Shown piece after piece: positions 19,842-46,084 of a DNA stretch of 64,000 nt. The notes beneath the pieces are model-generated. The model was given only the letters and a program-made list of their open reading frames with translations. It had not been told where the DNA came from and ran no database searches. This DNA is from Deroplatys truncata (taxonomy: Eukaryota > Arthropoda > Insecta > Mantodea > Mantidae). How positions within the stretch are numbered: position 1 is the first letter of the stretch; each line of letters starts with the position of its first letter. The stretch covers positions 500,082,190-500,146,189 of the forward strand of contig CM060990.1 of the NCBI GenBank assembly GCA_030765065.1, written 5' to 3'. Made by a program: the position numbers and the translations under genes.

Positions 19842-20405
19842 TCACGCTATAAAACCACCCGTCTTTAGCTTCTGAATAATCTCCATAATCGCACCAGAAA
19901 AGTCATTTTACCTGGTGTATGGAACACCATTAGCAGCCTTAGTAAGTCTACCAAGTCATTAGCATCGTTGTAGCGGTACAGCATATCCTCAATATTCGCT
20001 TTTGATATATCTTCTAGTCTTGGTAAGTTGACACTAGAATGCTTGCTTTCATTTGTGTGTTTATTCTGAGAGGCTTGCTCATTCAAAGAAACTGATCTTA
20101 TCGATTCATCCGTGGTAGCTATTGATGCTATTTTAGGATCACTTGAATGACTTCCAAGTACTGTACATCTTGAATCCCGCTCTTCGGAACTTGAAGAGAT
20201 TTCAGGATTGCGTTGGGGGTTGTAGTCACTACAAAGCTAATCATCTCTTTACAGCATCTTCTCTATGTTGCTTGAGTCTTGAAATAGTTCTGTTCTTTTA
20301 AAGTTCTATTGCATATGCAGCACTTAATAAAACTATTTCTTCTCCCTTGGGAAACATACGAAAAATCAAGATTCTCGTAAATTCACTGTAATTGAGCATC
20401 TTTAT
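19842..20405 (-). pseudogene. C2HC-finger protein gene, broken homologue of the palindrome gene
   Basis: The minus strand encodes islands that line up in order with the intact 155-aa protein at 45617-46084. Near 20370-20310 it has NLDFSYVSQG and KCCICNRT (LDFSYITHG and RCCVCRRI in the intact gene). After a one-base frame change comes KNRTISRLKQHRED (KNRSLSRFKFHRAT). Later DLVDLLRLL and, in another frame, MEIIQKLKTGGFIA match the C-terminal LVNILRLL and EEIISKLKASKVIA. The first finger cysteines and the histidine persist and the last cysteine is lost. Stops and at least three frame changes make it a pseudogene. Its 5' end faces the 21-bp array at 20802, about 400 bp away. Confidence 0.7.
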
Positions 20406-20801
20406 GAGTATTCATGCTCAAGCAGTATATATCAACCAGTCAATGTATGCTATAGATGTTGAGTTGTATACGACAACAGGAGACTGAACTATTATTCGGC
20501 ATTTACGTATTTATACATGATCTCAGGCTTTGATACATATAAACAGTCATATTTAAATTAGACCAACCGATATAGTTTAGTATTCGCACATTAATGTTGT
20601 AATTCTGTTAACTATAACTATTTCATTAAGTAGACGCAGATTCAAGTAGCATGAAATGGATTCATATGGGTAAGAGTACAACTTTGCTTGCTAGTTAGCA
20701 CTGACAATGTGCAAGCTGAGTGAGATACGGGTCTAGCTAGCTCGAGTCTGAAGCTCATGCATCCTACTTTAGCGAAAATGGTGCACATATCTCACAGCTT
20801 T

Positions 20802-21087
20802 TAGCGAGAGCGGGCTACCTTTTTAGAGTGAGTGGACTACCTTTTTGCGTGAGTGGGTCACCTTTTTGCGAGAGTGGGTCACCTTGTTGCGTGGGTGGGT
20901 CACCTTTTTGCGTGAGTGGGTCATCTTTTTGGGTGAGTGGGTCTCCTTTTGCATGAGTGGGTCGCCCTTTTACGTAATTGGGTTACCTTTTTGCGTGAGT
21001 GGGTCACCTTTTTGCGTGAATGGGTCACCTTTTTACGTGAGTGGGTCACCTTTTGCGTGAGTGGGTCACCTTTTTTGCGTGAGTGAC
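20802..21087. repeat. 21-bp tandem array, about 13 copies
   Basis: Units read GAGTGGGTCACCTTTTTG plus three variable bases, with 20- and 22-bp length variants. The array lies between the 5' end of the C2HC pseudogene and the truncated ATPase frame. The plus-strand open frame through it (REWVTFL repeated) is a by-product of the 21-bp (seven-codon) period. Confidence 0.95.
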
Positions 21088-21222
21088 TTACGTGATGGAG
21101 ATGTCTAGAATTAGCGTTCTAACATTGTCAGGAAACAGCTTTCCATGAAGTTCGCGCCTAAAGTAGCTTTCATAGTCTAGTGCCTGAATCGACAGCGGGC
21201 AATCTTGCTTCACCAGCTCCAT
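21088..21222 (-). pseudogene. Probable packaging-ATPase N-terminus, cut before Walker A
   Basis: A minus-strand ATG at 21222 opens a 44-residue frame containing YFRRELHGKLF and PDNVRTLIL. In FtsK/HerA-type packaging ATPases of Polintons and adintoviruses a similar stretch directly precedes the Walker A loop. Here the similarity stops at that point and the frame ends at 21088, where the 21-bp array begins. The gene is divergent to the phospholipase gene, whose start is 109 bp away. The fragment is short, so the assignment rests on context as much as on sequence. Confidence 0.45.
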
Positions 21223-21330
21223 GTTGCCAGCTAAAATAATAGAAATCGCCCTTAATGTATATATGCTAATAAATGTAAGCAATGACAAAGTATAAAAGAA
21301 CAATACACTAATAAAAATCATTAGTATACC

Positions 21331-22102
21331 ATGAGAACTAACGAGGTTAAGGTCGTAAGAGATTTCGGTTTAATTAACTCTCTCATAAACCTGCTGCCAT
21401 TTGAAGCGCATTTGCCTGGATATAGATACTGCGGACCTGGGACAGAGCTAGAAAAAATATCAAAGAGAGGAGACCGTTGAATCAATCCGTTAGACGAAGC
21501 GTGCGAACTTCATGACATTACCTACACTCAGTAAAAGGACTGTAGCTCGAGAAACATTGCAGACAAGATCTTAGCTGAAAAGGCGTGGAAAAGAGTGCAA
21601 TTATCTGATGCTACATTAGGTGCAAAGGTGGCAGCCCGACTAGTAACAGCTATTATGAACGGTAAGGTAGCTGTTGGCGCCGGATCCATGAAGAAGAAAC
21701 GAGGAGGATTTCCACCTCTAATCCCAATTATTGCAGCTCTAGGTGCTGCCACCAGAGGTGCATCCCAAATTACTACAGCTGTAAATAAGAAAAAGGCTGC
21801 AGATAAACTATTGGACGAGACATAACAGAGAAATTGAGGAAAGGTATCTGTTGGTGCTGGGCCCAAAAAGAGGAAGCCAGGAGAATTTATAACTCTTTTG
21901 CCAATTATTGCAGTTCTAGGCGCTGTCGCTGGAGGTGCATCACAAATTGCTAGAGCGTAAATAATAAAAAGGCCGCAGATAAACAACTTGCCGAAATAAT
22001 GAGGCATAACAGAGAAATTGAAGCAAGAGGTAGAGGTCTTCGAGTGAAGAAGAACAAAGGGAGGAACACCGAAACGAAGAGGGGACAGATCAAGAAATAA
22101 TT
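21331..22102 (+). pseudogene. Phospholipase A2/pX-like structural protein (in-frame stops, duplicated module)
   Basis: An ATG at 21331 opens a frame with the viral-type PLA2 signature. GYRYCGPGT forms the calcium-loop region (about 21412) and DEACELHDITY the catalytic His-Asp pair (about 21496). Then come the conserved ADKILAEKAWKRV segment and a basic-plus-hydrophobic module beginning KKKRGGF (about 21693). The frame is uninterrupted by frameshifts to 21825 but has a TGA at 21478 and a TAA at 21532. From 21838 the basic/hydrophobic module occurs a second time (PIIAVLGAVAGGASQIA) and, after a one-base loss near 21958, ends in RHNREIEARGRGL near 22050. This architecture is known from adintovirus and Polinton PLA2/pX-like proteins, thought to act in the particle and in membrane passage. 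Confidence 0.8.
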
Positions 22103-22121
22103 CAAAAACTCTGGCAGAGGG

Positions 22122-22288
22122 CTATACTTATCTCGGAAAAGCATTGAGTAACATAGATCCCGACTTGTATGCCCGACCTTTAAAGATTTCTCATTTTAGA
22201 CGATATGTCTCCTTTATTAGATCAATTAATAATAATACCATGAAGCCTGAAAATAAATGTGGTTTCACTGTTGATTTTTTCCAATGAT
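22122..22288 (+). pseudogene. Adenain-like protease, N-terminal fragment
   Basis: The plus strand encodes LGKALSNIDPDLY, then KISHFRRY, then NKCGFTVDF. This is the order of conserved N-terminal elements in the adenovirus-type cysteine protease of Polintons and adintoviruses, where a start-proximal alternation of Leu/Asp/Tyr is followed by ECGIVNLD-like text. The frame ends at 22286-22288, right at the inner edge of the right arm. The catalytic His, Asp and Cys segments are therefore missing. It follows the PLA2 gene on the same strand, as in related elements. Confidence 0.6.
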
Positions 22289-23771
22289 TGTTCTATAGGA
22301 ACGTTCTAGGGCTTCAGTGACAACGTTATTCCAGCTAATCAGCTGGCTGAATCTAATTTCCTGGTGAATATATGTAAGTTAAGCATCATACAAATCTAGC
22401 GCAGTATTGCATCAGTCTCCTTCCTCGATGGTAAACGTGGACACTCGATCTATGAGTTTTCCCATCTGCTACGCTTGGATATCATATTTCACAAGAATCA
22501 TCAAATCCAATTTACCTGCTATTCATATATATCCACTTCATAGAGCAAATCAGCCTCGTGTAGTGGGCCAGAACAGTAATATCATTGACTTTAGAAACAA
22601 GGATATAAGCATAATGCCCATAGCTTTTAGAAGAAGAAATCAGAGTCTTGGAGGATATAATAACGACTTGATTCGACGACCACTACATGCTCTGCCATTG
22701 ACAACCAATGTTTTAACGTCATTTAATCAAACGTTTCTTCAGGCATTGGGCTTTAGAATCCTATAATCATAGATATCACCAGTGTTACCGGGACGGCGAC
22801 ATACGACGACGAGATCAGTAAAGAAGAGGAACATGTGTTTTTGCCGTATAATACATCAGCTTGGACGCTAATGACGAGCTTGTCAAGCTGAGCATTTATA
22901 TACTTTACCTATCAATGGATGTATTACTAAACCTAATGGAGCAGTTAGTACTGCAAAGCTTATACACAATAGCCAGTCGGTGTTGGTACTGATTGGATCC
23001 AAGGACTCTAAAAACTGTATTATAGCGCCACAGGGTGAAGAGAATGCTGCTGTTAAACCTGTACTAATCCAGTACAGAGTGGCTGTGATTCGACTTTCTG
23101 ATGCTGAAATGTTTGAAATCCTCAAGAATGCCAAGCTGGATAAGACTCTGTTTCACCCATTTATGACCATGGATCTGCATACTCAACCTGCTGTGCCTCT
23201 AGCACTTACCTGGAATGCCGCCACCACATCTAAAAATGGAGAAGTCTATATTTGTCATTTTTGGTGCTCTGACTTTAAGATCGAGTAATGCAACTAAAGA
23301 CTGTTCGCTTTTTGATCATTGTAACTAGCTAATTTGAGACTTCATCTTAATAGTGAATGTTATTCCTATCGCGATAGGAGCTTTGACCTTGGAAACTCGA
23401 GATTTGCATCATTGCATGATCTGTACTCAAACTCTTATTGTGAAAAAGAGAATTATCGTTTATTGAAGAGAAAAGATTTTTCTTAAATTTGCTCCTATAT
23501 TTTTTATAGATTGCTCTCATCAACCAGAGGAAGTTGTAAATGGCTGTGTCACCATCAGAATAGGAATTCAAGCTAGTGCAGATATCCCTGCACAGACCTC
23601 CTTGTATTGTGTAATAATTCATGATAAAGTATTTACATACAAGCCTCTGAATCATGTGATGCAGCTTATACTTTAAACTAATCATTGTAAGGATTTATTT
23701 TTGCATTAGGAATGTAAGGATTTTTAATGAATAAAAAAACATGATGTAAAAGCATAGCTTCATTCTTTTTA
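22272..23771. repeat. Right inverted arm of the virus-like element
   Basis: It is the reverse complement of 18085-19563. Its inner edge (ATTTTTTCCAATGATTG) cuts off the protease fragment. The two arms differ by scattered substitutions, so they are neither a fresh duplication nor perfectly homogenised. Confidence 0.85.
22407..23288 (+). pseudogene. Unidentified arm-encoded protein, right copy
   Basis: Three consecutive islands on the plus strand appear to be one ancestral protein. The first is 22407-22766, with NIIDFRNKDISIMPIAF and LRRPLHA-like text, ending in a stop. The second is about 22786-22860, with EEEHVFLPYNTSAW. The third is about 22905-23288, open from ITKPNGAVSTAKLIHNS through RVAVIRLSDAEMFEIL to DFKIE and a TAA. 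Frame changes lie near 22860-22905. No signal peptide or membrane segment is evident. I do not recognise the family. In this setting a capsid or other virion protein is possible, unproven. Confidence 0.45.
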
Positions 23772-26090: not shown

Positions 26091-28000
26091 TCAGCAGTGT
26101 GTAAGGTGTTTACCTGGCCCCTCAAACACCTGGGCTCGGTTTCCCTGATTCTGATTATTGCTAGTGCTTGAGTGGTTATTGTTCAATTCCGAGTTTGATC
26201 CCCATCTTCGTCCAATGTTCGTGTTTTCGATAATCTGTGAGGGTACCGAACTGTGTCTCCCTGATCCATTGGAATATCTCCGGCGTCTATCACGGTTTCC
26301 TTTGTGCATGTTTTGGTCAGGCGAGTTTCTGCCTCCATTGTTGCGGTTGTCTTGGTGATAATGGCTACGCGCTGTGTGGCGGATATTATTAATGTGTGCT
26401 TCTCTTCCATGTGGCTTCTTTTCTGTGTTATGTTGATATGGTTGCAGTCTTCTCTCATATCGTGGTGGCTGGAAGCTTATCCTTGTCCTCGGTGACGTCG
26501 AGTGCCGTTCATTGTTATTGAAGTGAGGGGCTCTTGCCCCGGTCCCCGAAAATGGTGGTGATTGTCGGCCAACTTGTGGATAGTTGCTCCGTTGTGTTTG
26601 TCACGTGTTGCTTATGCTGGGGTTCTGATCGAAAGCTGTGATGAGCTCCAGCATTTTCGATATCGTTTGTGGTTGGGCAACAATTAAACCATTCCGTATT
26701 TGTGGGTCAAAATGATTGATGAGTAGAGCAATCACTTCTGTGTCTGACAGTGGTGGTTCTATTTGTTTGCTCTTTTGTGCAAATGTGAGTACATAATCAA
26801 TCAAGTTGCCATGAATATTCTGATTATAGCGGCCATTGTTGAGCTGTAGTCTACCTTTGTTAACCTCTGTTGGTCCCCAGTAACGTAATGGAAAAGCCTG
26901 TTTAAATTCACTGTACGACAAAGAATCTCCCAACTTGAGGCGCAGCCAGTTCAGTGCACGCCCTTTTAAGCATTTTCTTACAATTCATTTTATCCCCTCT
27001 GGAGTGGCTTTTAATCTAAAGTATTGGTCCAATTCACTAATGAATTCTTTTGGGTGATCTCCTTTTACTTCATCAAATATTGGGGGTGACAACTAATTTA
27101 ACAGGTGAGAATTTAAGTTAGTGGTATTATGAGAGCAGGTGACCGGTGTCGTTACACTTCTAGCAGGCACATCATAATTACATTGGTTACGTAAGTTGTT
27201 GGAGGCTACGCGCGGTAACAATGGAGTGCTGCCGGAGTCTGCCGATCTTTGGAATTCACTAGATGAACTTTGACTTGCGGTAGGTTCCAGTTCCAATCTT
27301 TGTACAGAATTCCTTAACTCATTAATTTCTCTATCATGCACTACATTCATTGTTTGTACAACATTTCTATGTTTATTAATTTCTTGCGAATTTGTTACCT
27401 GAGAAGCGGTTACCACTTTCAACGGCCGTGAGTTCCGAATCCACCCTGTTTGCTAATGCTTGTTGGCTTTGTGATAATGTTTCTTTTACCTGCCCTAACT
27501 GGTTTTGCATTCTCTCATTATTAGCTGTTAATGTTTCTACCTGTGAAGTAACAATATCGGACAAAGTGGCTATTTTACCTTTACTGACTTGCAGCTGCTA
27601 TTTTAATGATAAACATTTTGTTTGAATATTTGCCTGTCCTAAGCTAATTTGTTCTAACGTTTCTTATACATTGTTTAGTTGTTGATTGCTAGAAACGAAC
27701 GTTTCCTGTACCTTTCCTTATTTATTGTATTTGTTCCTGTAATTGTCTATTCGAATCTCTCAATGTTGAGGTGAGCATGAACTGCAGCATCTGCGTTAAA
27801 TTGGCAGAGCTGTGTCCGGATTTTACTACATTAATTGTTACATCATCTGGTATGTTTTGAGTTGTAATAGTATGTGACTCAGGTTGTGTGTGATTATTAT
27901 GCTGGCCCAGAGGTGGAGCATTGGTTTTTCCCTCTACGTGGGTGTCAGTATTGGATTTTTCAGCCACGATTAAAATTTTGTTATTTCTGAGCAATATGCA
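26091..28000 (-). pseudogene. LTR-retrotransposon gag, broken
   Basis: The N-terminal part (27994-27100) is rich in Gln and Asn and predicted to be coiled-coil (for example NERMQNQLGQVKETLSQSQQ), in several frames. The central part, around 27040-26600, has LDQYFRLKATPEG, CLKGRALNWLRLKLGD and LINHFDPQIRNGLI, typical of a retrotransposon gag capsid domain. The C-terminal part to 26091 is in the same frame as the capsid part but lies after a TGA near 26610. It is Arg/Asn-rich (NRDRRRRYSNGSG) and has no zinc knuckle, so nucleic-acid binding may rest on the basic tail. Another in-frame stop lies near 26990. Confidence 0.65.
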
Positions 28001-31600: not shown

Positions 31601-32837
31601 TTTAATTTTTATTTCTATGCACTTGATGACTACTAATCAATAGTTGCATGTATAATAAGAGACATAAATATGCACATAGTATTACATTTCAGTTGCGTTT
31701 GCTATACTTTGTCTTTTTGGGGGAGGGGCATTTAGTGGATTTAGTGCACTTTTAGTATGCTTTCCGTATAAGCTACGGTTAATTTTTTTATTGAAGTAAA
31801 GAAATTTAAAATGTGTTAAATTTTGTTCAGACTCTTCAATATAGAATGGCCTATTCCATACATGCAGTGATTCTCTAAAGAATTGAAAACTATTAGGATG
31901 TTCTCCGTATAAGGTATCCTGAATTCCGTACCAATTAAAACAAATTTTAAATCTTTCCATAAAATTTATTCCATGGATAAATCTTCAACTCCATGCGTGT
32001 GGTAATCCGCCTAAAAGCTGAAAGTATTTGTAAATCACCAGAATTTTTTACCGATAACCAGCAAATTCGGAATATAGGAACAAATGTTCTTCAATCTGTT
32101 TTTGTATAGCATTTGAACACTCCAACTCCGTACGTGCAGTTTGTCTAAATCTGGACATCCTTAGGATGCTATCTAGGAAACTGCCCTTAATTTTGTATAG
32201 CTTTGAATAAAATTTGAAATGTGCCTTCAAACTTCTGTACAGAGAGTCTCAACTCCGTATTTGCTGGCGTTTGTATCATGCGTACTCACGGACAAAAGAA
32301 CAACGCAGTAGCAATTGCACCTAAAAAGGTTTTCCGCGTATCCTTAGATATTAGATATTTTGTATTTACCTCTCGCACGGCAGATACTCCACCGCTTGCG
32401 TGGCTGACGAGAAAGACCCGCTACTGCGCACCCGTTTAGTTCCCCTGTGACGTCACGAGCTTAGTCTGAAGTGCAATGGCCTATAAGGAAGGGTAGCGGC
32501 TGTACGTAAAATACGTTGTGTAGATATGTACGTAATAAATATTATGAAAAGCTTCCACCCACTGTTTATTTACACAAGTCATGTGTAAGTTGACTTTGTG
32601 AAATTCAGTTGGAATCCGGGCGTAGCACTGAAAATTACGAATCTGATTGTCTCCCTATACAAGATACTGGCAGGAAATATAAAGTACAGGCACGAAATTA
32701 CTTGAACACTACGTTACATGCCTTTGCCACAGTATTACAGTATTTCGATAGTATTTAATTAATTAACTACGGCAATTAAGAATGCACTCTTTAGAATAAA
32801 AGACATATATGAAACTTGGAAAACCTGGAATACAGCG
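28684..32837. other. Interval without recognisable genes
   Basis: AT-rich DNA with short open frames of local composition. One small frame is listed separately. A CTT run lies at 30619-30638. Confidence 0.45.
29474..29634 (-). CDS. Small hypothetical frame, 53 codons
   Basis: A minus-strand ATG at about 29634 opens a charged, non-repetitive reading with ETTEMTLQQRFALMELKKG and VEGWEDPTNRL, ending in TGA near 29474. After the stop the same frame stays open for another 30 or so codons. The composition is more protein-like than the surroundings. It could be a fragment of a transposon protein or an exon; no family was recognised. Confidence 0.25.
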
Positions 32838-33135
32838 TGAACCTCCTAAAACTTGCACCGCAAATATTTCGGAAATGGAAAGTGCTATTGATGTGCAGTT
32901 TTCACAGCAGTAATTGGTACTTAGGGGCTCATTCATTTAGCCTATAAATAGATTTTAATAATACTGAGGTGTATTTTTTGTGCAAAAATAAATTTTTTTA
33001 AATGGAACAATGCCTAGTTGCATCAACAGAATACAGGTAGGGTAAATTAAAATGTCAGTGGCGTTTGTTGCAAGATTCTAGTCTAAGTGGTTTACGAGAA
33101 GTCTTATTTTGAAACCTTTACGCACCGACAACTTG
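32838..33135. repeat. Outer extension of the left palindrome arm
   Basis: This 300-bp stretch is the inverted counterpart of 52962-53265, sharing for example GCACCGCAAATATTTCGG. It is more diverged than the inner arms, roughly one difference in eight by eye. On the right side the match is separated from the inner arm by 1.25 kb that holds a transposase. It may be the 5' end of that transposon, in which case the left side has an internally deleted copy. Confidence 0.7.
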
Positions 33136-33224
33136 TACAACCTGTGGTAGCAGTAGAGATATAATAGCGACTTGAGCACAGTAGAGAGATGCCGACAAGC
33201 GATAAAGTTCTTTGTTCTACGCCG

Positions 33225-33320
33225 ACAAGCCCCGCCCCCTCCCTTTGTGTGCTCACATGCCGCCAGGTCTCGTGTCGTTAGGCCCCGCCCCCTCTCGCTT
33301 TGTGTGCTCACCTAATGCCG
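33225..33320. promoter_or_regulatory. Paired GC-box motif, left arm
   Basis: GCCCCGCCCCCTCCCTTTG and GCCCCGCCCCCTCTCGCTTT, each followed by GTGTGCTCAC, lie 51 bp apart in otherwise AT-rich DNA. They resemble Sp1-type GC boxes. The mirrored pair is at about 51530-51625. Promoter activity is inference. Confidence 0.35.
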
Positions 33321-33611
33321 GCAGTATCTGTGCTAACATGTTCTACCCCCTCCCCCATGCGTTCTACTGTGGCGTCATGACTTGATGGAATTGTTTTCTC
33401 GAGTCCTGCCGCCCCTCGGCAAATTAATTAGGTAATGTTCGTCAAACATTTTTTTTATGATTACTAAGGTCTGCAGATTGCATCCTCGAGCAATTAAGTT
33501 TTTTGATTAATTAATTGTTGACTGGAGCTTGAGTATAAGTAGTCTGCTCACGGTAACAGTCTGTCATGTAATGAAACACTGCAGCCTTCTTGTATCTGGG
33601 GAAATCGCTTG

Positions 33612-33772
33612 TCCATTAGCTGAACATGTTAGACGCTTTCAACACATTAATAGGCTTTTAAGTTTACATTCCGGATCTGTTTACATACATTAGCGATCAA
33701 CGACATACTTCCGCCAGGCGGTAACGGTGACCTCCATTAGCTGACCCGTTAGACGCTTTCACCCCATTAGCG
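33612..33772. repeat. Direct repeat CATTAGCTGA...GTTAGACGCTTTCA
   Basis: Two copies of about 38 bp (from 33616 and 33736) share CATTAGCTGA, GTTAGACGCTTTCA and a terminal CATTA. The mirror is in the right arm at about 51080-51240. Confidence 0.7.
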
Positions 33773-33889
33773 AACAATGTCAGTAATTGTTTTCCTAAGT
33801 GCTCTGCCCAACACTCAACACTTTAGATTTTAGCGATGGAAATGATATAAAAAGCAGCAGCTTCTCCAACGAGTTCCAAGTTGACCAGG

Positions 33890-36182
33890 ATGCCCGGGTT
33901 CGAATTACAAATTCAGCTTCTAATAACTCAGAGACTAATTACGATAAAGACATCAACTAAGGTTTATTACATTAATGTCATTAGATAGTTTCTTGTGAAT
34001 GTATATTTGGGTACATGGTGTCCAGGGTTCGAATACCGATAAAATGTAATTTAATTATAAATTTAATAACTCCTAAACTAATTAAGATAAAGACGCCAAA
34101 TAAACTTTATTGCCTTTATTTTATTAGGTAGTATCTTGTGGATGTGTAATTAGATACCTGACGTTCTGGGTTCGAGCCTAATGTTTAAATCGTCATTATC
34201 TCAGAAACTAAGAGAGGTAGAGGAATTGACCAAAGCATGATTGATAGCTCCTATGATGGGTAATTAATACTGTATATAATTTTCAATCAGTTGTCCTTAC
34301 TTCGAATCCCGATCTTTCAATCACTTACTTATTTTTTCTCTATACTCTAGAATATGTCACTTAGATTGATGCTGTAACTGTATACACAACCTTTAAACAT
34401 ATCAAACTAATATTGTAAATAATTTTGTTTCTGGTGTCCAGGGTTCGAATACCGATAAAATGTAATTTAATTATAAATTTAATAACTTCTAAACTAATTA
34501 AGATAAAGACGCCAAATAAACTTTATTGTCTTTATATTATTAGGTACTATCTTGTGGATGTGTAATTAGATACCTGACGTTCTGGGTTCGATCCTAATTT
34601 TAAATCGTCATTATCTCAGAAATTAAGAGAGGTAGACGAGTGAACCAAAGCATGATTGATAGCTCCTATAAGGGGTAATTAATACTGTATATAATTTTCA
34701 ATCAGTTGTCCTTACTTCGAATCCCGATCTTTCAATCACATACTTATTTTTCTCTATACTCTAGAATATATCACTTAGATTGATGCTGTAACTGTATACA
34801 GCACCTTTAAACATATAAAACTAATATTGTAAATAATTTTGTTTCTGGTGTCCAGGGTTCGAATACCGATAAAATGTAGTTTAATTATAAATTTAATAAC
34901 TTCTAAACTAATTAAGATAAAGACGCCAAATAAACTTTATTGCCTTTATGTTATTAGGTATTATCTTGTGGATGTGTAATTAGATACCTGACGTTCTGGG
35001 TTCGAGCCTAATTTTAAATCGTCATTATCTCAGAAACTAAGAGAGGTAGACGAGTGAACCAAAGCATGATTGATAGCTCCTATGAGGGGTAATTAATACT
35101 GTATATAATTTTCAATCAGTTGTCCTTACTTCGAATCCCGATCTTTCAATCACTTACTTATTTTTCTCTATACTCTAGAATATATCACTTAGATTGATGC
35201 TGTAACTGCATACAGCACCTTTAAACATATCAAACTAATATTGTAAATAATTTTGTTTCTGGTGTCCAGGGTTCGAATACCGATAAAATATAGTTTAATT
35301 ATAAATTTAATAACTTCTAAACTAATTAAGATAAAGAGGCCAAATAAACTTTATTGCCTTTATGTTATTAGGTATTATCTTGTGGATGTGTAATTAGATA
35401 CCTGACGTTCTGGGTTCGAGCCTAATTTTAAATCGTCATTATCTCAGAAACTAAGAGAGGTAGACGAGTGAACCAAAGCATGATTGATAGCTCCTATGAG
35501 GGGTAATTAATACTGTATATAATTTTCAATCAGTTGTCCTTACTTCGAATCCCGATCTTTCAATCACTTACTTATTTTTCTCCATACTCTAGAATATATC
35601 ACTTAGATTGATGCTGTAACTGCATACAGCACCTTTAAACATATCAAAATAATATTGTAAATAATTTTGTTTCTGGTGTCCAGGGTTCGAATACCGATAA
35701 AATGTAATTTAATTATAAATTTAATAACTCCTAAACTAATTAAGATAAAGACGCCAAATAAACTTTATTGCGTTTATGTTACTAGGTAGTATCTTGCGGA
35801 TGTGTAATTAGATACCTGACGTTCTGGGTTCGAGCCTAATGTTTAAATCGTCATTATCTCAGAAACTAAGAGAGGTAGAGGAATTGACCAAAGCATGATT
35901 GATAGCTCCTATGAGGGGCAATTAATACTGTATATAATTTTCAATCAGCTGTCCTTACTTCGAATCCCGATCTTTCAATCACTTACTTATTTTTCTCTAT
36001 ACTTTAGAATATATCACTTAGATTGATGCTGTAAATGCATACAGCACCCTTAAACATATCAAACTAATATTGTAAATAATATTGGTTCTGGTGTCCAGGG
36101 TTCGAATACCGATAAAATGTAATTTAATTATAAATTTAATAACTCCTAAACTAATTAAGATAAAGACGCCAAATAAACTTTT
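33890..36182. repeat. 416-bp higher-order tandem array, left arm (6 sites)
   Basis: The motif GGTGTCCAGGGTTCGAATAC recurs with TTCGA at 34028, 34444, 34857, 35270, 35684 and 36097, a period of 413-416 bp. Inside each unit two further TTCGA sites follow, within CTGGGTTCGAGCC and CTTCGAATCCCG, at spacings of about 143, 130 and 143 bp. Each is followed by a related AT-rich tail, so the unit is itself a trimer of diverged monomers. The TTCGA contexts resemble tRNA B boxes (GGTTCGANTCC). Confidence 0.9.
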
Positions 36183-36800
36183 ATAGGGGAAAGGATGCTC
36201 TCCTGAAACATTAGGTCTCTAGATAGAAGTATTTATAGGGGAGAGATAGGGAATACCAGGGCTGATGCTAGGCTAGTCAGATGCTAAAGGAGGGAGGGAT
36301 ATGCTTTATACGAGAGAGATAGGGAACACAAGGAAAGATGCTATACTAAACAGGACTTGAAGGGTAGAATATGAGCGATATAGCAAACCGAGGAGAGGTA
36401 TTAGGATAGGAGTTTTGAATGATGGAGTAGGCGTTTATATGCGAGAGATAGGGAATACGAGGGTCGATGCTAGGCTAGACGGTGTTGAATGAGGGAATGC
36501 ATCTTATATGAGAGAGGTAGGGGAATATGAGGAGAAGTGCTAGGCTAGTCGGGAAGGTCTGAATGAGAGAGTCTACGTCTATATGGGAAAATATAGGGAA
36601 AACGAAGGTAGGTGCTAGGTTGAGAGAGTCTTCAAGGAGGAAAATGCATTTATATGAGAGCCGTAGGGTATACGAGGAGAGGTGCTAGTCTATACATGGT
36701 TTGAGGATTAGAGTATACGTTTATATGGGAGACATATGGAAAACAGGAGAGATACAAGGATAGACAGAGATTGAAGGAGGAGGAATGTAGGTTTATACTG
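36183..36800. repeat. Minisatellite of the GGGAGAGATAGGGAATACGA family, left arm
   Basis: About nine degenerate units of 60-75 bp with GTTTATATGGGAGA, ATAGGGAATACGAG and GCTAGGCTAGAC. It begins exactly where the 416-bp array breaks off, inside TAAACTTTTATAGGGG. Confidence 0.85.
36187..36225. repeat. GGATGCTCTC...AAACATTAG motif, first of four in the left arm
   Basis: AAAGGATGCTCTCCTGAAAC followed by ATTAGGTCTCTAGA. Related copies lie at 38549-38590, 38759-38785 and 38789-38825 in the same orientation. The set brackets the 2.4-kb block that carries the minisatellite and the genes, and it is mirrored in the right arm. Confidence 0.65.
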
Positions 36801-36809
36801 TAATATAGA

Positions 36810-36945
36810 GAGTAATTCGATTATAAAACTTTTCTCATCCAGCCTTACAACACTTTTTATATACTTAATTTCTAAACCTTACAAACTTTATATTTGTTAA
36901 ACAGTAGTGCGCGAGACGGAGAGGGACAAACAGTATATCGGTTTA
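36810..36945. repeat. Segment shared with the polymerase locus at 63118-63245
   Basis: ATAGAGAGTAATTCGATTAT at 36803, CTTACAACACTTTTTATATA and GAGACGGAGAGGGACAAACA here have close counterparts, in the same order and orientation, just beyond the repeats next to the DNA polymerase remnant. The mirror in the right arm is at about 47095-47220. Confidence 0.75.
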
Positions 36946-37335
36946 CAGTGAAGTATACGTCCTAACCTATTCCCACCTTGTTTGTTCTGGATCTTCTCAT
37001 TGTCTGTCATCTAACGTAACCACGTAACAAGACGTAACACAGGAAATCATACATATGGCACATTAAAAAAAAATTAAGGTATATATAATGAAACATAAAC
37101 AAGTAGACAGAGGGTCGTCGATACATAGAAAACCAGGAGTTGTATGTACTGAGACCATAGATTAGTATAGGCAAACAACAAAGAAGTGAATTTATAGTGT
37201 AAATAGCCTAATATTTTCAAATATTATTATAGTCTAAAAGTATATAACTTAATTATGTATCGAGTATTGAGAAATAAACGTTATTCATTATTCACTAATC
37301 TCAGATCACTGCAATTGTATTGAATCAATTCACAA

Positions 37336-37625
37336 TTGCTAATGCCATTCAACTTTCATTTGTCTCTGATACATAAACAAATTGCAAAATGGAGAAGGAC
37401 GAAAGTAATAAAAAAACTCAGGCAGCAAATTTTAAGAAAGAAGAGAAAGATATATGACCGACATTGTTTTAGAACACAAATTAGTGCTGAAAATAAAATG
37501 ACTGATAGCTCTGCTAAGCGTAAGGAAGAGACATGGAAATAAATTGCAAATGAATACAATTCTAGGTTAGAAAAAGAAGATAAACAACATTCATGTAAAC
37601 CAATTTTTAAAAATCAGTTTAACTG
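37336..37625 (+). pseudogene. Lys-rich frame with a possible Myb/zeste-like helix (left arm)
   Basis: The frame 37336-37542 is strongly basic and ends in KRKEETWK before a TAA. In the same frame IANEYNSRLEKEDKQHS follows. Regulatory-zeste/Myb-SANT-like domains contain a comparable block with a Trp followed by IA.E(Y/F)NS, so a decayed DNA-binding protein is possible. The opposite strand is also open but is just the complement. The mirror at 46686-46397 differs by Ala to Val in ISAENK. Confidence 0.25.
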
Positions 37626-37674
37626 AATACATGTAAAAAAACATATCACTTTACAAAAAGTAATGCAGACAACA

Positions 37675-37680
37675 TTTATT
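37675..37680 (-). terminator. Poly(A) signal AATAAA of the left gene pair
   Basis: On the minus strand AATAAA lies about 50 bp after the stop of the 69-aa frame. It is mirrored at 46342-46347. Confidence 0.5.
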
Positions 37681-37731
37681 TTTATAAACATTATCCTATT
37701 ACATTCCTTTACAAAAAACCATACATATTTC

Positions 37732-37941
37732 CTAAAGGCAAAGGTGATAGTCTAGACATTCTAAACACTCAGTTATATAATCATATACATCACACAGAAA
37801 GAGACCATCATTATCAGTAAAAAAACTAAACATCTCAACAATGTCTGAATGATGTATTTTATAAGTACAAGTTTTTTGATATTTCAAAGTTCCTGTTATC
37901 CATGGCAGTAATTGATTAACACAATTTCTCGATCCTGTCAT
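37732..37941 (-). CDS. Conserved 69-aa protein, second frame of the pair (left arm)
   Basis: It starts with the ATG that overlaps the TGA of the upstream 155-aa frame (ATGA, four bases). The protein is identical to the right-arm copy. It contains several Cys near the end (ITECLECLDYHLCL) and acidic stretches (FFTDNDGLF). There is no signal peptide. A four-base stop-start overlap is rare in insect genes and common in compact viral or transposon transcripts, where it allows reinitiation. I do not recognise the family. Confidence 0.5.
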   Translation of the reverse strand: MTGSRNCVNQLLPWITGTLKYQKTCTYKIHHSDIVEMFSFFTDNDGLFLCDVYDYITECLECLDYHLCL

Positions 37942-38405
37942 GCTATAACTTTAGATGCTTTCAGCTTACTTATAATTTCCTCAATCTCTTGTGTGTGTCT
38001 ATTATTACCAGCATCCCTCGACGCAATTAGTAACCTCAATATATTTACTAGTCTATTCGGATTTTCAAGCGTTGATATCACTGAATCATCATCATATAAA
38101 GATTTCATATTCTCGCAACTTCCGATGTATCCAGATTTTTCACCAACAGTAGTCTCCAGTGAAGGACAGAGGCTTGATACGGTATAACATTCCCCTCTAT
38201 ACATCTTCGGATCTTCAAGTGCAGGTGAGAGAGTCGATTCAGTATAACATGTTGCTCTATGAAACTTAAATCTTGACAAAGAACGATTCTTAAAAATCCG
38301 CCTGCATACACAGCATCTAATAACGCGTTTTCCTCCATGTGTAATGTATGAAAAATCGAGTTTCTCATTCGTCAGTTGCACAGATTTTCTCGGGCAGTAG
38401 CTCAT
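37938..38405 (-). CDS. C2HC-finger protein, 155 aa (left arm copy)
   Basis: This is the same gene as at 45617-46084 with one residue difference (Leu instead of Ser at 103). Residues 31-53 form a finger C31-x2-C34-x14-H49-x3-C53. A C-terminal helix-like segment (LVNILRLL, then EEIISKLK) follows. The gene is open from ATG to TGA with no break. Upstream on the minus strand is a TATA-like element (38501-38492). Full discussion is under the right-arm copy. Confidence 0.6.
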   Translation of the reverse strand: MSYCPRKSVQLTNEKLDFSYITHGGKRVIRCCVCRRIFKNRSLSRFKFHRATCYTESTLSPALEDPKMYRGECYTVSSLCPSLETTVGEKSGYIGSCENMKSLYDDDSVISTLENPNRLVNILRLLIASRDAGNNRHTQEIEEIISKLKASKVIA

Positions 38406-38491
38406 GCTAAAACTAAAAGAAATTAAATGAATACGTGAATGCTAACGCTCGAAGGAATTAAAAGCGAATGAATGAATTCATAACACGCACC

Positions 38492-38501
38492 TATGTATAT
38501 A
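38492..38501 (-). promoter_or_regulatory. TATA-like box upstream of the left C2HC gene
   Basis: TATATACATA on the minus strand, about 90 bp before the ATG at 38405. It is mirrored at 45521-45530. Confidence 0.35.
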
Positions 38502-38548
38502 TCCAGGATGAGGACGACGGAGGGAATTGCGATCAATGCATAGCAGGG

Positions 38549-38825
38549 AGAAAGGATACTCTCTTGAAACATTAGTCATCTAGACAACTATTGTTCACGG
38601 AGCCTGTAGACGTCAGGTTGAATGGGACAGACCTCAGGTTCAAATCTTTAAGGGCACGGACCCAGCCTTTTGCCTGTCATGTATACTAAACCATCCTAAC
38701 AGCGTAACATTACGTTACAACGACACGTAACCAGAACATGGAGAGTGCGAGCATGGAAAAAAGGATGCTCTCTGGGAACATTACTGGAAAAGGATGCTCT
38801 CTGGAAACACTAGTCATCCACACAA
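38549..38825. repeat. Three further GGATGCTCTC...AAACATTAG motifs (left arm)
   Basis: GGATACTCTCTTGAAACATT (38556), GGATGCTCTCTGGGAACATT (38763) and GGATGCTCTCTGGAAACACT (38791), two of them followed by AGTCATC and a CACAAC/GACAAC tail. They lie between the C2HC gene promoter and the 21-bp array. Confidence 0.7.
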
Positions 38826-38954
38826 CGGGTTGTCCCTAACATTTCCAGATTTCGGGTCGTTCAACATCGTGACGCGCCCCTGTCATCTACATTTCGACGA
38901 AATTTTACCTCCTGAATTAAAGTTTGGTGATCTGTATAGACCTGTACAACATGC

Positions 38955-41673
38955 ATTACGCTATGTAACAGACTCATCACGTTATGTAACAACACGATCA
39001 CGCTAGGTAACAACATGTTCACGCTATGTAACAACATGATCACGCTATGTAACAACATGATCACGCTATGTAACAACATGATCACGCCATGTAACAACAT
39101 GATCACGCTATGTAACAACATGATCACGCTATGTAACAACATGATCACGCTATGTAACAACATGACCACGCTATGTAACAAAACGATCAAGCTATGTAAC
39201 AACTGATCACGCTATGTAACAACATGATCATGCTATGTAACAACCTGAGCACGCTATGTAACAACATGATCACGCTATGTAACAAACTGAGTACGCTATG
39301 TAACAACATGATCACGCCATGTAACAACTGATCACGCTATGTAACAACATGCTCAAGCTATGTAACAACTGATCACGCTATGTAACAACATGATCACGCT
39401 ATGTAACAACCTGAGCACGCTATGTAACAATCTGATCACGTTATGTAACAACTGATCACGCTATGTAACAACATGATCACGCTATGTAACAACATGATCA
39501 CGCTATGTAACAACATGATCACGCTATGTAACAACATGTTCACGCTATGTAACAACATGACCACGCTATGTAACAAAACGATCACGCTATGTAACAACAC
39601 GATCACGCTATGTACAACACGATCACGCAATGTAACAACTGATCACGCTATGTAACAACCTGATCAAGCTATGTAACAACTGATCACGCTATGTAACAAC
39701 ACGATCACGCTATGTAACAACCTGAGCACGCTATGTAACAACATGATCACGCTATGTAACAACCTGAGTACGCTATGTAACAACATGATCACGCCATGTA
39801 ACAACTGATCACGCTATGTAACAACATGCTCAAGCTATGTAACAACTGATCACGCTATGTAACAACACGATCACGCTATGTAACAACCTGATCAAGCTAT
39901 GTAACAACATGATCACGCTATGTAACAACCTGAGTACGCTATGTAACAACATGATCACGCCATGTAACAACTGATCACGCTATGTAACAACATGCTCAAG
40001 CTATGTAACAACATGTTCACGCTATGTAACAACATGATCACGCTATGTAACAACATGTTCACGCTATGTAACAACATGATCACGCTATGTAACAACATGA
40101 CCACACTATGTAACAACATGATCACGCTATGTAACAAAACGATCAAGCTATGTAACAACACGATCACGCTATGTAACAACCTGATCAAGCTATGTAACAA
40201 CTGATTACGCTATGTAACAACCTGAGCACGCTATGTAACAACCTGATCACGCTATGTAACAACTGATCACGCTATGTAACAACATGCTCAAGCTATGTAA
40301 CAACATGATCACGCTATGTAACAACATGTTCACGCTATGTAACAACATGTTCACGCTATGTAACAACATGATCACGCTATGTAACAACATGACCACACTA
40401 TGTAACAACATGATCATGCTATGTAACAAAACGATCAAGCTATGTAACAACATGATCACGCTATGTAACAAAACGGTCAAGCTATGTAACAACCTGAGCA
40501 CGCTATGTAACAACATGTTCACGCTATGTAACAACATGATCACGTTATGTAACAACATGATCACGCTATGTAACAACATGATCACGCTATGTAACAAAAC
40601 GATCAAGCTATGTAACAACCTGAGCACGCTGTGTAACAACATGTTCACGCTATGTAACAACATGAACACGCTATGTAACAATACGATCACGCTATGTAAC
40701 AATCTGATTACGCTATGTACCAACTGATAACGCTATGTAACAACATGATCACGCTATGTAACAACCTGAGCACGTTATGTAACAACATGACTACGCTATG
40801 TAACAAAACGATCACGCTATGTAACAACTGATCACGCTATGTAACAACCTGAGCACGCTATGTAACAACATGACCACGCTATGTAACAAAACGATCACGC
40901 TATGTAACAACTGATCACGCTATGTAACAACCTGAGCACGCTATGTAACAACCTGAGCACGCTATGTAACAATACGATCATGCTATGTAACAACCTGATC
41001 ACGCTATGTAACAACCTGATTACGCTATGTAACAACTGATCACGCTATGTAACAACATGATCACGCCATGTAACAACCTGAGCACGCTATGTAACAACAT
41101 GATCACGCTATGTAACAACATGAACACGCTATGTAACAATACGATCACGCTATGTAACAATCTGATTACTATGTAACAACGGATCACGCTATGTAACAAC
41201 ATGATCACGCTATGTAACAACCTGAGCACGCTATGTAACATCATGATCACGCTATGTAACAACCTGATCACGCTATGTAACAACATGCTCACGCTATGTA
41301 ACAACTGATCACGCTATGTAACAACATGATCACGCTATGTAACAACCTGAGCACGCTATGTAACAACATGATCACGCTATGTAACAACATGTTCACGCTA
41401 TGTAACAACACGATCACGCTATGTAACAACACGATCACGCTATGTAACAACATGGACACGCTATGTAACAACATGAACACGCTATGTAACAATACGATCA
41501 AGCTATGTAACAACCTGAGCACGCTATGTAACAACATGATCACGCTATGTAACAACATGAACACTCTATGTAACAACCTGAGCATGCTATGTAACAACAT
41601 GATCACGCTATGTAACAACCTAATCACGCTATGTAACATGATCACGCTATGTAACAACATGATCACGCTATGT
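38955..41673. repeat. 21-bp tandem array, left arm, about 130 copies
   Basis: The unit core is CACGCTATGTAACAAC followed by a variable ATGAT/CTGAG/ACGAT/ATGTT. Most units are 21 bp; the AACTGAT variant is 20 bp. The array lies 550-600 bp from the 5' end of the C2HC gene. Open frames on both strands (MITLCNN and LHSVIML repeated) exist only because 21 bp equals seven codons. There are no unique spacers. Confidence 0.97.
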
Positions 41674-41689
41674 AAATAGGGTGGACCAT

Positions 41690-42020
41690 TTAAGTTGAGG
41701 CTATACAATATATCCAAAACTAAGCGTTGTAGAAAGAAATGTCTTTAATAAACTTGACTGATATTATGGCGAAAGTAAATGCTGCTAGTCGTATTTCGTT
41801 TGGAGGCCGTTATGAGGGTCATTTTGGGTCAATTTATTTTTTTAAATGGGAACCTACAATTAGGGTCCCATTTAAAAAGACCCTGAAATGACCCTCACTA
41901 CGTCCTCCAAACGAAATACGACTAGCAGCATTTACTTTCGCCATAATATCAGTCAAGTTTATTAAAGACATTTCTTTCTACAACGCTTAGTTTTGGATAT
42001 ATTGTATAGCCTCAACTTAA
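41690..42020. repeat. Central hairpin of the palindrome
   Basis: The two arms meet with only about six unpaired bases near 41857, within AAATGGGAACCTAC and its inverted partner AGGGTCCCATTTAA. The left side has about seven extra T/A bases close to the tip, so the centre is slightly asymmetric. The inverted core contains repeated GGGTC/GACCC blocks and is not found in the flanking arrays. Confidence 0.9.
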
Positions 42021-42036
42021 ATGGTCCACCCTATTT

Positions 42037-45000
42037 ACATAGCGTGATCATGTTGTTACATAGCGTGATCATGTTACATAGCGTGATTAGGTTGTTACAT
42101 AGCGTGATCATGTTGTTACATAGCATGCTCAGGTTGTTACATAGAGTGTTCATGTTGTTACATAGCGTGATCATGTTGTTACATAGCGTGCTCAGGTTGT
42201 TACATAGCTTGATCGTATTGTTACATAGCGTGTTCATGTTGTTACATAGCGTGTCCATGTTGTTACATAGCGTGATCGTGTTGTTACATAGCGTGATCGT
42301 GTTGTTACACAGCGTGAACATGTTGTTACATAGCGTGATCATGTTGTTACATAGCGTGCTCAGGTTGTTACATAGCGTGATCATGTTGTTACATAGCGTG
42401 ATCAGTTGTTACATAGCGTGAGCATGTTGTTACATAGCGTGATCAGGTTGTTACATAGCGTGATCATGATGTTACATAGCGTGCTCAGGTTGTTACATAG
42501 CGTGATCATGTTGTTACATAGCGTGATCCGTTGTTACATAGTAATCAGATTGTTACATAGCGTGATCGTATTGTTACATAGCGTGTTCATGTTGTTACAT
42601 AGCGTGATCATGTTGTTACATAGCGTGCTCAGGTTGTTACATGGCGTGATCATGTTGTTACATAGCGTGATCAGTTGTTACATAGCGTAATCAGGTTGTT
42701 ACATAGCGTGATCAGGTTGTTACATAGCATGATCGTATTGTTACATAGCGTGCTCAGGTTGTTACATAGCGTGCTCAGGTTGTTACATAGCGTGATCAGT
42801 TGTTACATAGCGTGATCGTTTTGTTACATAGCGTGGTCATGGTGTTACATAGCGTGCTCAGGTTGTTACATAGCGTGATCAGTTGTTACATAGCGTGATC
42901 GTTTTGTTACATAGCGTAGTCATGTTGTTACATAACGTGCTCAGGTTGTTACATAGCGTGATCATGTTGTTACATAGCGTTATCAGTTGGTACATAGCGT
43001 AATCAGATTGTTACATAGCGTGATCGTATTGTTACATAGCGTGTTCATGTTGTTACATAGCGTGAACATGTTGTTACACAGCGTGCTCAGGTTGTTACAT
43101 AGCTTGATCGTTTTGTTACATAGCGTGATCATGTTGTTACATAGCGTGATCATGTTGTTACATAACGTGATCATGTTGTTACATAGCGTGAACATGTTGT
43201 TACATAGCGTGCTCAGGTTGTTACATAGCTTGACCGTTTTGTTATATAGCGTGATCATGTTGTTACATAGCTTGATCGTTTTGTTACATAGCATGATCAT
43301 GTTGTTACATAGTGTGGTCATGTTGTTACATAGCGTGATCATGTTGTTACATAGCGTGAACATGTTGTTACATAGCGTGAACATGTTGTTACATAGCGTG
43401 ATCATGTTGTTACATAGCTTGAGCATGTTGTTACATAGCGTGATCAGTTGTTACATACCGTGATCAGGTTGTTACATAGCGTGCTCAGGTTGTTACATAG
43501 CGTGATCAGTTGTTACATAGCTTGATCAGGTTGTTACATAGCGTGATCGTGTTGTTACATAGCTTGATCGTTTTGTTACATAGCGTGATCATGTTGTTAC
43601 ATAGTGTGGTCATGTTGTTACATAGCGTGATCATGTTGTTACATAGCGTGAACATGTTGTTACATAGCGTGATCATGTTGTTACATAGCGTGAACATGTT
43701 GTTACATAGCTTGAGCATGTTGTTACATAGCGTGATCAGTTGTTACATGGCGTGATCATGTTGTTACATAGCGTACTCAGGTTGTTACATAGCGTGATCA
43801 TGTTGTTACATAGCTTGATCAGGTTGTTACATAGCGTGATCGTGTTGTTACATAGCGTGATCAGTTGTTACATAGCTTGAGCATGTTGTTACATAGCGTG
43901 ATCAGTTGTTACATGGCGTGATCATGTTGTTACATAGCGTACTCAGGTTGTTACATAGCGTGATCATGTTGTTACATAGCGTGCTCAAGTTGTTACATAG
44001 CATGATCGTGTTGTTACATAGCGTGATCAGTTGTTACATAGCTTGATCAGGTTGTTACATAGCGTGATCAGTTGTTACATTGCGTGATCGTGTTGTACAT
44101 AGCGTGATCGTGTTGTTACATAGCGTGATCGTTTTGTTACATAGCGTGGTCATGTTGTTACATAGCGTGATCATGTTGTTACATAGCGTGATCATGTTGT
44201 TACATAGCGTGATCATGTTGTTACATGGCGTGATCATGTTGTTACATAGCGTACTCAGGTTGTTACATAGCGTGATCATGTTGTTACATAGCGTGCTCAG
44301 GTTGTTACATAGCGTGATCGTGTTGTTACATAGCGTGATCAGTTGTTACATAGCTTGATCAGGTTGTTACATAGCGTGATCAGTTGTTACATTGCGTGAT
44401 CGTGTTGTACATAGCGTGATCGTGTTGTTACATAGCGTGATCGTTTTGTTACATAGCGTGGTCATGTTGTTACATAGCGTGAACATGTTGTTACATAGCG
44501 TGATCATGTTGTTACATAGCGTGATCATGTTGTTACATAGCGTGATCATGTTGTTACATAGCGTGATCAGTTGTTACATAACGTGATCAGATTGTTACAT
44601 AGCGTGCTCAGGTTGTTACATAGCGTGATCATGTTGTTACATAGCGTGATCAGTTGTTACATAGCTTGAGCATGTTGTTACATAGCGTGATCAGTTGTTA
44701 CATGGCGTGATCATGTTGTTACATAGCGTACTCAGTTTGTTACATAGCGTGATCATGTTGTTACATAGCGTGCTCAGGTTGTTACATAGCATGATCATGT
44801 TGTTACATAGCGTGATCAGTTGTTACATAGCTTGATCGTTTTGTTACATAGCGTGGTCATGTTGTTACATAGCGTGATCATGTTGTTACATAGCGTGATC
44901 ATGTTGTTACATAGCGTGATCATGTTGTTACATGGCGTGATCATGTTGTTACATAGCGTGATCATGTTGTTACATAGCGTGATCATGTTGTTACATAGCG

Positions 45001-45066
45001 TGAACATGTTGTTACCTAGCGTGATCGTGTTGTTACATAACGTGATGAGTCTGTTACATAGCGTAA
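42037..45066. repeat. 21-bp tandem array, right arm, about 145 copies
   Basis: It reads GTTGTTACATAGCGTG plus a variable part on the plus strand, the inverse of the left array. Its outer half contains blocks, such as the duplicated segment around 44090-44400, that make it longer than the left array. Unit order near the centre is the same in both arms. Confidence 0.97.
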
Positions 45067-45520
45067 TGCATGTTGTACAGGTCTATACAGATCACCAAAC
45101 TTTAATTCAGGAGGTAAAATTTCGTCGAAATGTAGATGACAGGGGCGCGTCACGATGTTGAACGACCCGAAATCTGGAAATGTTAGGGACAACCCGTTGT
45201 GTGGATGACTAGTGTTTCCAGAGAGCATCCTTTTCCAGTAATGTTCCCAGAGAGCATCCTTTTTTCCATGCTCGCACTCGCCATGTTCTGGTTACGTGTC
45301 GTTGTAACGTAATGTTACGCTGTTAGGATGGTTTAGTATACATGACAGGCAAAAGGCTGGGTCCGTGCCCTTAAAGATTTGAACCTGAGGTCTGTCCCAT
45401 TCAACCTGACGTCTACAGGCTCCGTGAACAATAGTTGTCTAGATGACTAATGTTTCAAGAGAGTATCCTTTCTCCCTGCTATGCATTGATCGCAATTCCC
45501 TCCGTCGTCCTCATCCTGGA

Positions 45521-45530
45521 TATATACATA
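45521..45530 (+). promoter_or_regulatory. TATA-like box upstream of the right C2HC gene
   Basis: TATATACATA lies 87 bp before the ATG at 45617. The spacing would fit a short 5' leader. Confidence 0.35.
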
Positions 45531-45616
45531 GGTGCGTGTTATGAATTCATTCATTCGCTTTTAATTCCTTCGAGCGTTAGCATTCACGTATTCATTTAAT
45601 TTCTTTTAGTTTTAGC

Positions 45617-46084
45617 ATGAGCTACTGCCCGAGAAAATCTGTGCAACTGACGAATGAGAAACTCGATTTTTCATACATTACACATGGAGGAAAACGCGTT
45701 ATTAGATGCTGTGTATGCAGGCGGATTTTTAAGAATCGTTCTTTGTCAAGATTTAAGTTTCATAGAGCAACATGTTATACTGAATCGACTCTCTCACCTG
45801 CACTTGAAGATCCGAAGATGTATAGAGGGGAATGTTATACCGTATCAAGCCTCTGTCCTTCACTGGAGACTACTGTTGGTGAAAAATCTGGATACATCGG
45901 AAGTTGCGAGAATATGAAATCTTCATATGATGATGATTCAGTGATATCAACGCTTGAAAATCCGAATAGACTAGTAAATATATTGAGGTTACTAATTGCG
46001 TCGAGGGATGCTGGTAATAATAGACACACACAAGAGATTGAGGAAATTATAAGTAAGCTGAAAGCATCTAAAGTTATAGCATGA
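45617..46084 (+). CDS. C2HC-finger protein, 155 aa (right arm copy), unknown family
   Basis: The frame is intact from ATG to TGA. An N-terminal basic part leads into KLDFSYITHGGKRVIR. A finger follows with C31-x2-C34-x14-H49-x3-C53 and the hydrophobic residues expected of a C2H2-like fold. The middle is Ser/Glu-rich (60-110). The C-terminal 40 residues have RLVNILRLLIASRDAGNN, then EEIISKLK, probably helical. I infer a small DNA-binding protein. A broken relative is inside the adintovirus-like element (19842-20405), in the same orientation to a 21-bp array. The next frame overlaps it by ATGA. TATA-like box, two frames and poly(A) signal all fit in about 830 bp. The two arm copies differ at one residue (Ser or Leu 103), in keeping with recent use or arm homogenisation. 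Confidence 0.65.
   Translation: MSYCPRKSVQLTNEKLDFSYITHGGKRVIRCCVCRRIFKNRSLSRFKFHRATCYTESTLSPALEDPKMYRGECYTVSSLCPSLETTVGEKSGYIGSCENMKSSYDDDSVISTLENPNRLVNILRLLIASRDAGNNRHTQEIEEIISKLKASKVIA

Follow-up and report, generated by a model that had tools for sequence, protein, structure and literature searches.

In vertebrate Mavericks, target duplications of 6 bp and end motifs of the form (AGT)2 or (AG)3 have been described (PMC8097293). According to PMC5803895, insect Mavericks are known to carry a PLA2-bearing capsid-like gene, and a circle of the Cotesia congregata bracovirus holds a partial Maverick; zinc-finger 'Ziftr' genes are reported in some adintoviruses (PMC11071296). Here we analyzed a 64-kb stretch of the genome of the mantis Deroplatys truncata, referred to below as the window, in which an 18,539-bp palindrome (33152-51690) with two intact genes for a finger protein of 155 amino acids (aa) is accompanied by a broken finger gene (19842-20405, minus strand) inside a virus-like element. 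The palindrome is a mobile DNA element with Maverick-like ends that is present in many copies in the genome. As a whole, the explanation that we consider probable joins a Maverick-type gene family, a palindrome that would be a high-copy non-autonomous member of the Maverick/Polinton-type group (a Maverick satellite), copying through a hairpin, and a finger protein predicted to bind repeat arrays.

The sequence-only reading had claimed that the broken gene is a homologue of the palindrome's gene, recognizable by named islands in the same order at 20370-19842 (minus) and expected to align better than shuffled sequence once frameshifts are allowed for. In a tblastn search of the 64-kb window with the 155-aa protein, the broken stretch was matched at 20376-20287 (minus; 33.9 bits, E 6e-5), and a second match at 19907-19845, which is not significant alone (E 9.7), was collinear with the first. 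A frameshift-tolerant local alignment of 19800-20450 (minus) with the 155-aa protein scored 104, in comparison with a mean of 30.2 (standard deviation 4.1, maximum 45) for 120 dinucleotide shuffles. The reversed 155-aa protein, used as a control, scored 50, and the outside homologues P0001 and P0002 scored 84 and 113, respectively. Among 196 tiles of the window, with the palindrome's own gene set aside, the two highest scores (100 and 59) fell on the broken stretch and the next was 54. At the DNA level, 38255-38366 matched 20261-20376 at 67% over 116 columns (E 1.2e-7). The outside protein P0003 also matched the broken stretch, at 19990-19910 and 19907-19845 (E 0.001 each). The gene is interrupted by frameshifts and stops, and all five islands (LDFSY, CC.C, KNR..SR.K.HR, LRLL and EII.KLK) were located in the same order over three frames. 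The claim was confirmed on each of these points: judged by sequence, the broken gene and the finger gene of the palindrome are genuine homologues.

The broken gene sits between two inverted 1.5-kb capsid-like copies, the left one at 18086-19566 (minus) being 95.5% identical to the right one at 22271-23770 (plus). The right copy, which was the one tested, holds a double-jelly-roll capsid-like piece (22875-23285, plus; PF21738, E 1.2e-5, 25.2 bits, cut-off 27). Between the copies there are also a 21-bp array upstream of the broken gene (20780-21096), a PLA2-like piece (21325-21477, plus; PF08398, E 3.7e-4, 21.2 bits, cut-off 23.9) and a protein-X-like piece (21535-21822, plus; PF05829, E 1.3e-3, 19 bits, cut-off 25), so that the capsid, protein X and PLA2 pieces of the element at 18086-23770 range in E from 1.2e-5 to 1.3e-3, all under the curated cut-offs. 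A PLA2, a protease and a probable ATPase gene had been ascribed to this element; the PLA2-like piece was recovered, below its cut-off, no ATPase was found, and the protease remnant is a putative reading.

The 564 bases of the broken gene were then used as a query against the host genome, and the best 40 of 1,299 candidates comprised the window's own copy and 39 others at 87-90% identity. Contig C16 (707 Mb, 16.5% of the genome) held 29 of these 40 matches, the window's included (p 7e-15), and 21 of the 87 listed palindrome insertions (p 0.04). In 19 other loci that were read, the finger was found with a 21-bp array and capsid-like repeats in every case, with PLA2 in 16 and with protein X in 15; only 1.5-kb flanks were read, so that the absence of a piece means little, and the copies were found through finger DNA and form one family by descent, not independent cases. 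Because it stands beside the 21-bp array and the capsid-like repeats in 19/19 loci, the finger gene can be counted as a regular component of the broken family, which is an older family than the palindrome. The suggestion that the finger protein is an undescribed conserved gene of its element family therefore held as far as conservation within this one family goes; that it is undescribed was not proved, as Ziftr genes have been reported.

The entire palindrome is an inverted repeat with one intact finger gene per arm (37938-38405, minus, and 45617-46084, plus). The left and right arms contain, respectively, a 414-bp repeat array of 5.2 copies (34016-36181) and 7.2 copies (47840-50832), a 70-bp repeat array (36222-36790, plus, and 47241-47789, minus) and, upstream of the finger gene, a 21-bp array (38946-41675, minus, and 42035-45076, plus). 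An asymmetrical hairpin (41806-41885) lies at the center. The 21-bp arrays were considered as coding sequence and rejected because 21 of 145 spacings are 20 bp and disrupt the frame. Apart from the finger gene, the frame antisense to it and frames within the repeat arrays, no open reading frame (ORF) of at least 90 aa was present in the palindrome, in agreement with the claim that it has no hallmark virus gene. The ORF list, on which no integrase model was run, contained no PolB, integrase, ATPase, protease or capsid gene, and no integrase, ATPase, protease or capsid gene was recognized by eye in the stop-to-stop frames of 36180-38950. Broken frames at 37390-37700 presumably resemble a Myb/SANT-type domain; the pieces 37324-37539 and 37623-37817 had no Pfam match.

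The 4.29-Gb host genome was searched with the finger protein, and the best 150 of 7,078 candidates were scored. All 150 were full length (99-100% coverage and identity), stop-free and distributed on 16 contigs. They included 62 divergent pairs with a spacing of 3.5-9.6 kb (median 7.24 kb) and 26 single genes, whose partners may fall below the scoring limit; one single gene was the same-strand neighbor of a pair. Both flanks were examined in 11 copies, namely the window copy and 10 of the 62 pairs. Similarity to the window palindrome stopped at 33148-33183 or 51670-51694 in 20/20 flanks of the other copies. AGTAG was present at 22/22 ends (the script looked for AGTAG, and the printed junctions agreed). 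A perfect 6-bp target duplication was found in 10/11 copies, and 5/6 bases were duplicated in copy L009/L010; the flanks of the 11 copies differed, each with its own duplication. The window copy is bordered by GGTAGC at 33146-33151 and 51691-51696, as read at the junctions.

A search of 5.8 billion proteins gave ten outside relatives of the finger protein at E <= 1 (P0001-P0010), nine of them at E <= 3.6e-5 and P0010 at E 0.12. P0001 showed 38% identity to the 155-aa protein over 92%, and both P0001 and P0002 have the full layout of a C-x2-C-x14-H-x3-C finger, a linker and a C-terminal module, with finger ligands that are invariant across the three proteins. P0003-P0010 have only the C-terminal ~42 residues in common with the 155-aa protein, and PF26634 appears in the precomputed annotation of seven of these eight. 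The C-terminal module was 73% identical to P0003 across 41 residues, and its PF26634/DUF8207 type was found by alignment, by tblastn to annotated members and by a structure match; the PF26634 profile itself was absent from the Pfam results used here. The best viral match in Foldseek was a DUF8207 protein of the Cotesia sesamiae bracovirus (probability 1.00, E 0.01), with none at E <= 0.001. We take PF26634 to be DUF8207 and a Maverick gene, an assumption supported by this bracovirus match. The window protein has the C-terminal helical module in common with PF26634/DUF8207-type proteins, but, together with P0001 and P0002, it differs from them in having a BED-like finger as its N-terminus. The finger protein and the broken gene probably represent one gene family with a BED-like finger, a variable linker and a ~42-residue C-terminal helical hairpin. 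Viral-contig scans with the finger protein, P0001, the capsid-like piece, the PolB-like piece described below and an alignment of PF26634 relatives gave no relative.

At E 1e-3, the 70-bp array is confined within the window to the flank of the broken element, the two arms of the palindrome and 61450-62508. At the first of these places an AGTAGT edge followed by the array (17465-18028, plus) abuts the broken element, and at the last an AGTAGT edge again precedes the array (61416-62508, plus). For an element starting at 17465 no right end was found; of the two candidate matches, the exact one is on the wrong strand and the other contains a mismatch, while 0.67 are expected by chance. Inward of the palindrome's 70-bp array, a unique 150-bp segment (36789-36937, plus) is 78% identical to a segment (63095-63246) between the third array and a piece at 63617-63910 (minus) that we take to be PolB-like from a motif. 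The sequence-only reading had tied the palindrome to a virus-like element through the broken gene. The gene homology stood, as did the PLA2, protein X and double-jelly-roll-like pieces, below Pfam cut-offs. A more direct tie to Mavericks is supported, at the level of sequence, by the AGTAG ends, the 6-bp duplications, and the 70-bp array and 150-bp segment of the 61416-64000 locus.

PolB genes were searched in the genome with PF03175, and the best 76 of 11,882 candidates contained open frames of up to 1,350 aa. Repeated co-occurrence of the finger gene with PolB, integrase and capsid genes of complete elements had been named as a result that would support a conserved gene. Among the matches listed, none of the 87 palindrome insertions, none of the best 40 broken-family matches and none of the best 150 PF26634-type matches (query P0009) had any of the 76 PolB loci at a distance of 20 kb or less, and no integrase search was made. 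The lack of a listed PolB locus near the palindrome fits a non-autonomous element and, as far as these lists reach, gives no support to co-occurrence with PolB. The PF26634-type genes (best 150 of 5,251) were mostly open frames of ~259-283 aa, including an opposite-strand pair 2 kb apart (C7:206344386 and 206346254), and are perhaps another element family.

We compared the two arms within and between the 11 copies. The outer 24 bases showed 0.36 mismatches within a copy and 7.0 between copies (range 0-13; p 5e-5 by shuffled pairing). In a 1.5-kb gene-bearing stretch, the arms differed by 0.11% within a copy and by 0.32% between copies (p 0.0005). In seven copies the two arms agreed within 3 bp in the spacing of end and gene, and in the other four they differed by 1, 1, 2 and 3 whole 414-bp units. 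The two halves are near-copies of each other in most insertions examined. The divergence between copies of the outermost 24 bases (33152-33175 in the window) set beside that of the 1.5-kb interior looks as if ends had been swapped among families. A lower polymorphism in the finger ORF (3/465 vs 30/1036 sites, p 0.004) was not used as proof of selection because the copies had been chosen by protein score, and a ratio of nonsynonymous to synonymous substitution (dN/dS) of 0.2 on three islands was set aside for the same bias.

To survey the center, 601 midpoint bases were read in each of 12 pairs. It was whole in eight and partial in one, was missed in two that gave array only, and seemed to be lacking in one. 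The centers that were read were near-identical and formed one asymmetrical imperfect hairpin, for which single-strand DNA folding of the window copy gave -25.3 kcal/mol (z -7.35). Two orientations of the center were seen and dismissed as evidence of flip-flop, because a palindrome can insert either way round.

On the explanation that we favor, the palindrome would keep the finger gene alone and have its PolB and integrase supplied by other elements, most likely Mavericks at other loci whose PolB frames are open. Copying of a half-length linear molecule, closed at one end by the central hairpin, would begin at the free AGTAG end and pass through the hairpin to yield the full palindrome, which the integrase would insert. 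Copying through the hairpin would make the arms start out alike, and templating of one arm by the other during replication is the simplest account of their likeness. The finger protein is predicted to bind DNA and to control early transcription or replication; its most likely target would be the 21-bp arrays, with units of two helical turns, that lie upstream of the finger gene itself. We infer mobilization in trans, copying through the hairpin and the DNA target from these features. A more tentative proposal, which we regard as possible rather than probable, is a satellite that exists as a self-complementary half-genome closed by a hairpin, is copied from a protein-primed free end into a palindrome, is integrated by a helper Maverick and brings only its own DNA-binding regulator.

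Besides the absence of listed PolB loci near the palindromes listed, several results weigh against this explanation. The full six-base AGTAGT was present at only 1/22 ends, the others being AGTAGA or AGTAGC. Database searches gave no PolB for the piece at 63617-63910, including a protein search with the piece itself, which had no match. In copy L039 (C16:330401950-330402550) the 21-bp arrays apparently adjoin each other head to head, and the central hairpin between them seems to be missing. The BED profile reached 16.4 bits in P0002 (E 0.0097) and 12.8 bits in P0001 (E 0.13), below the Pfam cut-off of 20.6, and the Pfam scan of the window protein gave no BED line; its best line was Utp13 (E 0.013, under the cut-off), and PF18658 was the sole match to its finger (E 0.15). 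The model of P0002, made from the three-sequence alignment, was poor overall, with a mean predicted local distance difference test (pLDDT) of 55.8 and a predicted template modeling score of 0.26; within it, the finger appeared as strands followed by a helix (residues 21-50, pLDDT 71-80) and the C-terminal helical hairpin had a pLDDT of 79-87. This model matched the BED structure 2ct5 at E 5.7 only, and the PDB fold search with it gave no match at E < 1. Searches of PHROGs, NCBIfam and PDB sequences gave nothing informative, and the finger protein had no match among PDB sequences.

Gene conversion after insertion, the main rival account, could likewise make the arms alike, and a foldback-type element would then need no hairpin replication: the palindrome would have arisen once, moved by ordinary transposition and undergone arm-to-arm conversion after each insertion. 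The foldback-like Galileo has long, tandem-repeat-bearing inverted repeats that are 98-100% identical within a copy (PMC3573991). In the window copy, the arms differ by 9 substitutions in the ~5.5-kb interior (36182-41681) and by 10 in the outer 864 bp (33152-34015), fewer for their length in the interior, and in the 1.5-kb stretch the partner arm was strictly nearest for 11/22 arms, tied for six and beaten by another copy's arm for five. However, the ends are alike within a copy to the outermost bases and unlike between copies, so that conversion tracts would repeatedly have had to reach the last bases, and the end-to-gene length agrees in 7/11 copies; we consider this course of events doubtful. 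Near-perfect long palindromes can also stem from chimeric reads, but an assembly or fold-back read artefact is very improbable in view of at least 62 divergent pairs at different places, 11 copies with different flanks and their own target duplications, one of them imperfect, and arms that differ by substitutions and array units.

Since many hAT transposases and host proteins contain BED fingers, the finger gene might derive from a BED gene of the host or of hAT type that was acquired on two independent occasions, with an incidental link to Mavericks. This would leave unexplained the C-terminal module, which is common to both genes and to proteins without the finger, its retention in order with the finger in the broken copy, and the 19/19 broken-family loci with a 21-bp array and capsid-like repeats; we hold it to be improbable. 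As to function alone, action of the finger protein on chromatin, in host defense or as an integrase cofactor, instead of on the 21-bp arrays, is a substantial possibility, if somewhat the less likely one. A shared 21-bp binding site was unsupported: the units of the two families have no more in common than GCGTGA (best 10/21, p 0.58) and are unrelated in sequence. On the other side, the arrays of both families have the same period and the same place, directly upstream of the gene, and two helical turns would suit phased binding.

Other features were noted near the elements. A stretch of ~1.27 kb (51697-52968) just outside the palindrome's right end resembles, by eye, a mariner-like element; farther out, 52969-53272 corresponds in inverted orientation to 32830-33130, with a match of 86.5%. 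A reverse transcriptase at 4417-5472 (minus; PF00078, E 1.4e-13) is probably part of an element without long terminal repeats. Two weak pieces under the cut-off were a Ty3 capsid-like piece at 26601-26933 (minus; E 0.0025) and a DUF659 piece at 55775-56110 (plus; E 0.0045).

Provided that the two arms are alike at the time of insertion, their divergence could be used to estimate its age, in the way that long terminal repeats are used for retroviruses, and the route of replication becomes testable. The finger/PF26634 gene family could serve as a marker in searches for elements of this kind and for their helpers. If true, a hairpin-closed satellite would be a new life style of Maverick-type DNA that joins protein-primed and hairpin-telomere replication. 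At the level of titles and abstracts in the open-access literature, we found no report of a whole-element palindrome with Maverick-like ends, of palindromic or non-autonomous Mavericks, or of foldback elements like this palindrome.

The palindrome shares 6-bp target duplications with Mavericks/Polintons (PMC8097293 and PMC5803895), and its ends are of a similar AGT type, with five of the six bases at every end examined. It differs from them in being wholly an inverted repeat with the finger gene as its only recognized gene; PolB frames are abundant in the host genome and none was found in the palindrome. The 'Ziftr' gene of some adintoviruses (PMC11071296), which are in the same virus group, resembles a zinc-finger regulator, a likeness of description. 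The imperfect hairpin at the center resembles the hairpin telomeres of poxviruses and parvoviruses (PMC8956199 and PMC11575299, as listed by title) and the centers of head-to-head replication intermediates. In contrast to those viruses, no such replication gene was seen in the palindrome, and after integration the hairpin occupies an interior position. Galileo (PMC3573991) has long inverted repeats with tandem arrays inside and arms that are alike within a copy, as does the palindrome. However, Galileo belongs to the P superfamily and has 7-bp target sequences, whereas the palindrome has 6-bp target duplications, AGTAG ends, a length of 18.5 kb and a conserved hairpin center.

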